From: Candidatus Zixiibacteriota bacterium
GTDB taxonomy: Bacteria; RBG-13-66-14; B26-G2; WVWN01
Assembly (NCBI GenBank): GCA_030613505.1
Contig: JAUWLW010000061.1
Span: 1-15,135 of the forward strand
Reading direction: 5' to 3'
DNA length: 15,135 nucleotides
Part shown: positions 1 to 1,388 of the stretch, piece after piece
Numbering within the stretch: position 1 is the stretch's first letter
Layout of the letters: the number at the start of each line of letters is the position of its first letter
Position numbers and translations under genes: made by a program
Notes under the pieces: generated by a model
What the model saw: only the letters and a program-made list of their open reading frames with translations
Told to the model about the DNA's origin: nothing
Database searches by the model: none

Positions 1-280
1 CACCAAGTTCTCGGGCGAGGTGTACGTGCTGACCAAAGAGGAGGGCGGGCGGCACAAGCCGTTCTTCGACGGCTACCGGCCGCAGTTCTACTTCCGGACG
101 ACGGACGTGACGGGAGCGGTCCACCTCCCGGATGGGGTGGACATGGTGATGCCGGGAGACAGCGTCTCGATGAAGGTGGAGCTCATCATCCCCATCGCCA
201 TGGAGAAGGAGCTGCGGTTCGCCATCCGCGAGGGCGGCCGCACCGTAGGCGCCGGCGTCGTTACCGACGTCGAAGAGTAA
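1..280 (+). CDS. tuf: Elongation factor Tu, C-terminal part (first tuf copy, 5' end outside window)
   Basis: EF-Tu is the GTPase that carries aminoacyl-tRNA to the ribosomal A site. Reading from base 2 the frame gives the end of the beta-barrel domains: [20 protein letters not shown], then a [15 protein letters not shown] segment, a VMPGD segment and the [17 protein letters not shown] signature. It closes with TAA at 278-280. About 92 residues are present; the G domain lies upstream of the window. The last residues (DVEE) are more acidic than usual. rpmG starts three bases after the stop, so the two are almost certainly co-transcribed. This end cannot be compared with the second tuf in the window because only that gene's N-terminus is present. 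Confidence 0.97.
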
Positions 281-283
281 GTC

Positions 284-448
284 ATGGCCTTAAAAGGAGC
301 CAATCAGATAATAACCCTCGAGTGCACGGTGTGCAAGGAGCGCAATTACACCACCACCAAGAACAAGAAGAAGCATACCGACCGACTCGAGTTGAATAAG
401 TATTGCCCGCGCTGCCGTAAGCACACGCCCCATAAAGAAATAAAATAG
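284..448 (+). CDS. rpmG: 50S ribosomal protein L33, zinc-binding type
   Basis: This is a small 54-residue protein of the large ribosomal subunit near the E site. It starts [20 protein letters not shown] and contains [10 protein letters not shown] and [13 protein letters not shown]. Cysteines 14, 17, 41 and 44 form two CxxC pairs, so this is the zinc-binding (C+) form. The ATG at 284 lies three bases after the upstream tuf stop. The only Shine-Dalgarno-like bases (GAAGAG, 272-277) fall inside the end of tuf, suggesting coupled translation. The stop TAG (446-448) shares its last two bases with the 5' end of the following tRNA-Trp gene. All three isoleucine codons are ATA, which is notable in GC-rich DNA. 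The rpmG-trnW-secE-nusG order is a common bacterial arrangement. Confidence 0.95.
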
Positions 449-520
449 GGTCATAGCTCAATTTGGCAGAGCACCGGATTCCAAATCCGGCGGTTGGGGG
501 TTCGAGTCCCTCTGGCCCTG
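447..520 (+). tRNA. trnW: tRNA-Trp (anticodon CCA)
   Basis: A complete cloverleaf folds by eye. The acceptor stem is AGGGTCA (447-453) with TGGCCCT (513-519), including one T-G wobble. The D stem is GCTC/GAGC (456-459/469-472). The anticodon stem is CCGGA/TCCGG (474-478/486-490), around the loop TTCCAAA with anticodon CCA at 481-483. The variable region is 491-495. The T stem is GGGGG/CCCTC around TTCGAGT (501-507). The discriminator is G520, and the A1-U72/G73 combination is that of bacterial tRNA-Trp. The 3' CCA is not encoded (AAT follows). The first two bases lie inside the rpmG stop codon. Cysteine-free certainty on the isoacceptor comes from the anticodon itself. Confidence 0.97.
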
Positions 521-553: not shown

Positions 554-733
554 ATGCGCAAACTGTGGAATTTTTTGGTCGAGGTCAAGGCCGAGCTGAA
601 GAAAGTAACTTGGCCCACGTGGATCGAGGTCTTCTCCTCGACCATTGTCGTTATCATGACGACGCTGATGGTCGCCGCGTTGATCGGCGTCTGGGATAAA
701 TTATTGATGGAGATAATGCTCCGCATCCTGTAG
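554..733 (+). CDS. secE: Preprotein translocase subunit SecE
   Basis: SecE is a small inner-membrane subunit of the SecYEG channel. The 59-residue protein is the short single-span form. An amphipathic N-terminal part carries the family signature ELKKVTWPTW (about residues 14-23). One hydrophobic membrane segment follows (about 27-47, STIVVIMTTLMVAALIGV), then a short tail. The ATG at 554 is chosen because GAGGAG at 539-544 lies nine bases upstream and the product begins at the expected place. Starts further upstream in the frame would run into the tRNA. Its stop is followed 19 bases later by the nusG start, the usual secE-nusG pairing. Confidence 0.95.
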   Translation: MRKLWNFLVEVKAELKKVTWPTWIEVFSSTIVVIMTTLMVAALIGVWDKLLMEIMLRIL

Positions 734-752
734 GCGAGCGGGAGAGGTGGTT

Positions 753-1388
753 TTGGCCGAAGAAGAGGCAAGTGCCGCGACGGCGGGAACCGAAGGGGCG
801 GAAGCCGTGCCCGACGAGCGAGAAAGCTCCGCGTACCAGGTTCGGGTGGAAGACCCGAACGTGCGGTGGTACGTAGTCCACACGCTGACGGGCCACGAAC
901 AGAAGGTCAAGGCCGCTGTTGACCGCGCGGTGGACGAGCGGAACCTGGGCGGTTTGATCTACAACTTGCTCGTTCCGGCGGAGGATGTCACCACCCGGAC
1001 CAAAAAGGGCAAGAGCGTCCGCAGGAAGGTCTTCTTCCCCGGGTACGTGCTGGTCCAGATGAAGGTCAGCGAGGAGTCCTGGGGGTTCGTGCGGCGGACA
1101 GCGGGGGTCACCGGCTTCGTCGGCTCGGGCGCCACGCCGACGCCGTTGTCGGACGAAGAGGTCCAAATAGTGTTGGACCAGGTCGAGGGCCGCAAGCCCC
1201 AGCTCGAGGTCGAGGTCGACTTCGAGGAGAGCGACGTCGTCAACATCACCTCGGGCCCGTTCGCCAACTTCTCCGGCGTGGTGGAGGAGGTTTATCCCGA
1301 CCGCGGCAAGTGCAAGGTTATGGTGACGGTCTTCGGCCGCGCGACGGCGGTGGAGTTGGATATCTCGGAGGTCGAGAAGGCCCGCTAG
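753..1388 (+). CDS. nusG: Transcription termination/antitermination factor NusG
   Basis: NusG binds the polymerase clamp through its NGN domain and couples to S10 or Rho through its KOW domain. The NGN domain begins at RWYVVHTLTGHEQKV (about residue 38) and includes FPGYVLVQM (about 94-102). The C-terminal KOW domain begins near residue 164 with NITSGPFANFSGVVEEVYP. TTG at 753 is preferred because GGAGAGG (741-747) lies five bases before it; a GTG at 747 is in frame but overlaps that site. The product has 211 residues, longer than the usual 175-180. The extra part is a Glu/Ala-rich N-terminal extension of about 36 residues. A GTG at 861, immediately after a perfect hairpin, would give a canonical 175-residue NusG, so the start is the least certain point here. 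Confidence 0.94.
   Translation: MAEEEASAATAGTEGAEAVPDERESSAYQVRVEDPNVRWYVVHTLTGHEQKVKAAVDRAVDERNLGGLIYNLLVPAEDVTTRTKKGKSVRRKVFFPGYVLVQMKVSEESWGFVRRTAGVTGFVGSGATPTPLSDEEVQIVLDQVEGRKPQLEVEVDFEESDVVNITSGPFANFSGVVEEVYPDRGKCKVMVTVFGRATAVELDISEVEKAR
840..860 (+). promoter_or_regulatory. Perfect 8-bp stem-loop inside nusG
   Basis: Left arm GTTCGGGT (840-847) and right arm ACCCGAAC (853-860) are perfectly complementary around the loop GGAAG (848-852). It lies exactly between the acidic extension and the NGN domain, and the next codon, GTG at 861, is in frame. The loop carries a purine run at Shine-Dalgarno distance (eight bases) from that GTG. The inverted repeat is seen directly; a role in internal initiation or autoregulation is inference. 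Confidence 0.45.

Follow-up and report, generated by a model that had tools for sequence, protein, structure and literature searches.

In the window (the whole 15,135-nt stretch of Candidatus Zixiibacteriota DNA analysed here), the stop codon of rpmG, which encodes ribosomal protein L33, shares its last two nucleotides with the downstream tRNA-Trp gene, and the same overlap appears to have arisen repeatedly and independently across many bacterial phyla rather than being a local oddity. The best explanation, to which we give a probability of roughly two in three, is a compaction-derived overlap within a tuf-rpmG-trnW-secE-nusG operon, in which L33 would be made before the tRNA is cleaved from the transcript and a 5' mRNA without a stop codon would be left afterwards. 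That the stop codon is cut seems likely, and we infer co-transcription, cleavage at 446/447 and the stalling of ribosomes on the nonstop mRNA.

The rpmG-trnW junction and its apparent operon

The features of the junction and its surroundings are given in Table 1. The L33 reading frame scores 86.7 bits against the Ribosomal_L33 profile of Pfam (cut-off 25) over profile positions 2-47 of 47, and this match extends to the last residue of both the protein and the profile, which places the product in the L33 family. It also comes just under the cut-off for the Pfam profile CapR (284-445; 22.6 against 24.2 bits), probably owing to a common zinc ribbon. The tRNA is identified as tRNA-Trp by its cloverleaf, its CCA anticodon, its A1-U72 pair and its G73. 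The full RF00005 model of Rfam covers 447-520 (66.4 bits), with an acceptor stem of 7 bp whose outermost pair is A447-U519 and with G520 as the discriminator. ARAGORN gives 446-521 by extending the acceptor stem to eight pairs with a U446.G520 wobble; U8-A9 and the position of the D stem set nucleotide 1 of the tRNA at A447. By the usual 7-bp rule the mature 5' end is predicted to be 447, and in principle the U446-G520 wobble could shift RNase P cleavage by one base. An overlap of the TAG stop at 446-448 with the mature tRNA-Trp 5' end had been proposed in a sequence-only reading of the window, and it is borne out by the reading frame, the Rfam boundaries and the position of A447-U519 as the outermost pair. 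The cut proposed there, which would leave an rpmG mRNA ending in U446, is right as a predicted RNase P site, taken from the tRNA end placed by Rfam.

Table 1. Positions in the window of the rpmG-trnW junction and the neighbouring genes
Feature	Position	Strand	Evidence
3' end of tuf (EF-Tu domain 3), stop TAA at 278-280	2-280	+	Pfam GTP_EFTU_D3, 126.6 bits
rpmG, L33 (zinc-ribbon type, CxxC...CxxC), 54 amino acids/54 codons, stop TAG	284-448	+	Open reading frame; Pfam Ribosomal_L33
A(-2)U(-1), predicted RNase P leader dinucleotide; predicted cut 446/447	445-446	+	Position from RF00005
Stop codon shared with tRNA-Trp, made up of its N(-1) (U446) and its first two nucleotides (A447, G448)	446-448	+	
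tRNA-Trp, anticodon CCA at 481-483, CCA end not encoded	447-520	+	Rfam RF00005; ARAGORN
secE, same apparent operon, downstream of tRNA-Trp	554-733	+	Pfam SecE
nusG, same apparent operon, downstream	747-1388	+	Pfam NusG + KOW

The window begins within tuf, and rpmG follows the tuf stop codon after 3 nt. A scan of positions 1-800 found neither a promoter-like site on the tRNA strand (sigma-70 consensus only) nor a terminator between rpmG and tRNA-Trp, which makes co-transcription of tuf, rpmG and trnW likely. The genome also carries an RNase P RNA gene of type A and a tmRNA gene (G000:C56, 145.9 bits), and these, together with a junction free of promoter and terminator, make it plausible that the genes share a transcript and that a 5' fragment without a stop codon is left. 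One copy of rpmG was found in the genome and one credible tRNA-Trp, the copy at the junction; a second match to the tRNA-Trp pattern is not among the genome's tRNA places, and a reversed control likewise gave 1 match. In the lowest-energy RNA fold of 400-530 the cloverleaf is broken and the tRNA pairs with the rpmG end (z-score only -1.5); this fold may be due to chance.

The same context bears on the possibility that there is no real conflict between the two genes, with the tRNA coming mostly from a separate internal promoter, or the 5' fragments decaying first, and the overlap being a harmless quirk of packing. L33 is dispensable in E. coli, 3' ends without protection degrade fast, and the overlap is tolerated in many lineages, all of which fits such a view; a tRNA promoter within rpmG would, moreover, mean that some of the tRNA is made free of the conflict. 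Against it stand the scan of 1-800, which showed no promoter-like site on the strand of the tRNA, and the close spacing of rpmG and tuf in an apparent operon, which would make cleavage within a translated transcript hard to avoid, and we regard a junction free of conflict as possible but rather doubtful.

Distribution and persistence of the overlap

The distance from the stop of L33 to the mature tRNA-Trp was surveyed in relatives across bacteria, a downstream tRNA-Trp being in reach at 151 of 167 loci. The exact 2-nt overlap (-2) is present in 17 of these 151 rpmG-trnW neighbours, spread over 11 families (f1, f18, f25, f32, f34, f49, f83, f90, f101, f156 and f198); the loci were selected for their resemblance to the L33 of the window, which makes this 11% a biased figure and not a census frequency. 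An overlap of 1 nt, or of more than 2, was seen in no neighbour (0/151), and a stop codon lying further inside the tRNA, for example at the TAG of tRNA positions 8-10, can be discarded (0/151 loci). Gaps of 0, +1, +2 and +3 nt were seen 1, 2, 0 and 1 times (4 in total, of 151), and gaps of +4 to +13 are occupied by about 3.8 loci per position (of 151). The gene order of the window, tuf-rpmG-trnW-secE-nusG, is that of the surveyed neighbours, most of which have a spacer of at least 4 nt. Measured against the density at +4 to +13, the spike at -2 has a Poisson P of 6e-7, or about 0.002 when the 17 cases are collapsed to 11 families: the exact -2 overlap exceeds chance at the local spacing density and is unlikely to be a coincidence.

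GTDB species genomes were also scanned with a pattern consisting of the L33 end, TAGG and the start of the tRNA D arm, a search from which the window's own genome records were perhaps excluded. At least 119 contigs carry the overlap pattern, with about 20 named lineages among the matches listed. Those represented among the matches listed include Dictyoglomus, WOR-3/Stahlbacteria, Aminicenantes and other Acidobacteriota, Omnitrophota, Thermotogae, Spirochaetes, Nitrospirae, Actinomycetota, Lentisphaerae, Latescibacterota, Zixiibacteriota, Marinamargulisbacteria, Lindowbacteria, Bacteriovoracaceae, Thermodesulfobacteriota, Desulfurella acetivorans (complete genome) and Hippea. The closest to the window among the matches listed is a Candidatus Zixiibacteriota MAG (L224), which shares the tRNA start AGGGTCAT with it and has a near-identical L33 end. 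An artefact (a misplaced tRNA end, a wrong frame or an assembly error) might be suspected from the difference of one base at each tRNA end between ARAGORN and Rfam. Such an assembly or annotation error is in effect refuted by the recurrence of the junction in three separate genomes of the window's genus and by the placement of the ARAGORN tRNA-Trp start at the second base of the TAG in 118 of 119 cases among the matches listed.

Whether relatives conserve the overlap, a check attached to the original observation, has a mixed answer. It is found in all genus members where the locus was found (3/3 genomes) and in many phyla, whereas a genome of the same order has a gap of 61 nt and two genomes of the same class have gaps of 66 and 8 nt, which rules out strict conservation in the window's class. 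In the class containing Desulfurella and Hippea, the overlap is kept in 19 of 21 genomes from four families; the L33 query used for this class had an approximate N-terminus and served only to locate the loci, spacings being measured on the loci themselves. Both exceptions (L302 in genome G401 and L298 in G371) have a +3 gap, and the junction of L302, TAGGATAGG, looks like the product of a local duplication that parted the two functions.

Origin of an overlap of exactly two nucleotides

The sequences on either side of the tRNA 5' end suggest why the overlap is always of the same size. The tRNA-Trp starts with AGG in 143 of the 151 survey loci, and at the 134 non-overlapping loci the nucleotide at N(-1) is T in 52, C in 51, A in 21 and G in 10 (T or C in 103/134), with mostly A or G at N(-2). 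A bias towards a purine and then a pyrimidine before tRNA-Trp is seen even where there is no overlap, and it is consistent with the leader preferences of RNase P, as many bacterial pre-tRNAs carry a uridine at N(-1) (PMC10465520) and A(-2)U(-1) is an optimal leader for the E. coli enzyme (PMC9433436). With an AGG start and a pyrimidine, often U, at -1, a UAG often pre-exists at the boundary: a TAG straddling the tRNA 5' end is already found at 49 of the 134 non-overlapping loci, at 16 of them in the L33 frame. L33 usually finishes on Lys or Arg, AAA and AAG being the commonest of these last codons, and such a codon ahead of the U makes a leader favourable to RNase P (A445-U446 in the window). 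Were the stop to abut the tRNA or overlap it by 1 nt, position -1 would be A or G, bases that are disfavoured there in these tRNAs.

L33 ends 14 residues from the start of its last CxxC motif in 14 of 17 overlapping and 103 of 134 non-overlapping loci. The overlapping proteins stop at the usual place, which suggests that the spacer was lost and the protein not extended; an origin through loss of the stop codon and a lengthened L33 is ruled out by this normal end. We infer from such comparisons an evolutionary route of spacer loss followed by lock-in. A single deletion of the spacer, perhaps from one TAG to the other, would suffice to produce the -2 form. From then on U446, A447 and G448 would each be in dual use and substitutions could hardly free the overlap, with only an insertion readily undoing it, as the +3 relatives suggest.

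This lock-in bears on a different reading, that the overlap is a selected regulatory switch through which RNase P lowers L33 relative to EF-Tu, or ties L33 to the supply of tRNA-Trp or RNase P via nonstop decay, a proposal that comes nearest to the sequence-only reading and to the model of Mukai for selB-selC. The excess at exactly -2, its many origins and its persistence across a class could all be taken as marks of selection, the upstream tuf would stay translatable after the cut, and the same logic has been put forward for selB-selC (PMC8124441). Persistence at class level is to be expected anyway, however, if three dual-use bases lock the overlap, so that it would be explained without a regulatory role; in addition, the overlap is absent in most neighbours, including genomes of the same order and class, it was lost in two Desulfurella-class genomes, and it has no known regulatory partner. 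A selected switch is thus unlikely. The evidence does not favour a regulatory role over compaction with lock-in, and we claim no dedicated one. A further candidate, UAG as a sensor of tRNA-Trp charging, is ruled out, as tRNA-Trp decodes UGG and not UAG.

Predicted fate of the transcript and known parallels

For a compaction-derived overlap, the reading we prefer, ribosomes trailing RNA polymerase would translate L33 on the fresh transcript and terminate at a UAG composed of U(-1) of the pre-tRNA and A1 and G2 of tRNA-Trp, and L33 may be finished on the nascent transcript before the tRNA is complete. A ribosome terminating at the UAG would cover, with its footprint, the 5' acceptor strand of the tRNA, and termination would thus alternate with tRNA folding and RNase P cleavage. 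Once the site is cleared, RNase P would cut between U446 and A447, releasing tRNA-Trp and the secE-nusG mRNA. The remaining 5' tuf-rpmG fragment would end in ...AAA-U, with only the U of the rpmG stop left; EF-Tu should still be translatable from it, L33 would not be normally terminated, and late ribosomes on the cut rpmG would be left to tmRNA or decay. The earlier description of L33 synthesis and tRNA-Trp maturation as mutually exclusive on one transcript is too strong, since several L33 chains could be finished before the cut. What stands of it is a conflict of order in time, first protein and then tRNA on each transcript. The alternative put forward with it, that cut mRNAs constantly supply nonstop ribosomes for tmRNA rescue, is a possible outcome. 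A further-reaching version, in which bacterial tRNA punctuation evolved many times, RNase P removes the L33 stop from most tuf-rpmG transcripts, the timing of tRNA-Trp maturation sets the number of L33 chains per transcript relative to EF-Tu, and tmRNA or A-tailing is obligatory, seems improbable.

The closest precedent for the rpmG-trnW junction is tRNA punctuation in animal mitochondria, as at human MT-ND2/TRNW and MT-ND1/TRNI, where the end of the reading frame likewise abuts a tRNA whose first bases complete the stop codon. In human mitochondria, fragments of TRNW and TRNI create in-frame stops for ND2 and ND1 on the uncut RNA; once processed, the ND2 and ND1 mRNAs acquire a stop only through polyadenylation (PMC9674279). 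RNase P cuts between reading frame and tRNA in the mitochondrial case, and with the same geometry at rpmG-trnW the same cut is predicted there. The two differ in that mitochondria rebuild the stop with poly(A) and use a protein-only RNase P, whereas rpmG-trnW belongs to a bacterial operon with RNA-based RNase P and tmRNA.

The mitochondrial parallel could be taken further, with A-tailing of the ...AAA-U end rebuilding UAA in bacteria as well and making the cut mRNA fully functional. In bacteria, A-tails mostly promote RNA decay, and the single PolyA_pol-family gene found in the genome is probably needed for CCA addition, as CCA is not encoded in the tRNA-Trp. Thus, even though U followed by added A gives UAA, and human ND2 and ND1 are likewise cut beside tRNA-Trp and tRNA-Ile and completed by polyadenylation (PMC9674279), such repair of the rpmG stop is very unlikely.

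The only direct precedent for overlaps of a bacterial tRNA and a stop codon that we found in the open-access literature is that of selC (tRNA-Sec), which is nested in or overlaps selB in Alphaproteobacteria, Dyella/Luteibacter and Nitrospirae (Mukai 2021, PMC8124441). There, too, a bacterial reading frame runs into the tRNA that follows it; processing of that tRNA is expected to yield a nonstop mRNA, and it has been proposed that protein and tRNA are alternatives from one RNA (PMC8124441). In selB-selC, however, ribosomes read the whole tRNA, or its part up to residues 46-48, adding a C-terminal extension to the protein, whereas at rpmG-trnW only the last 2 nt of the stop are common. The rpmG-trnW junction is not of this type, L33 ending at its usual residue with 2 nt of overlap; it also involves different genes, leaves L33 unchanged and has a much wider lineage spread. 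No paper describing the rpmG-trnW overlap was found in the open-access literature on rpmG, tRNA-Trp, secE and nusG.

If the cut occurs as predicted, in many bacterial lineages the ordinary maturation of a tRNA strips the stop codon from the mRNA that encodes L33. The rpmG-trnW junction would then turn a highly expressed operon into a natural source of nonstop mRNA, one open to experiment, and would be a bacterial counterpart of mitochondrial punctuation. As the overlap is class-wide in the Desulfurella/Hippea group, which includes cultured species, this can be tested directly.
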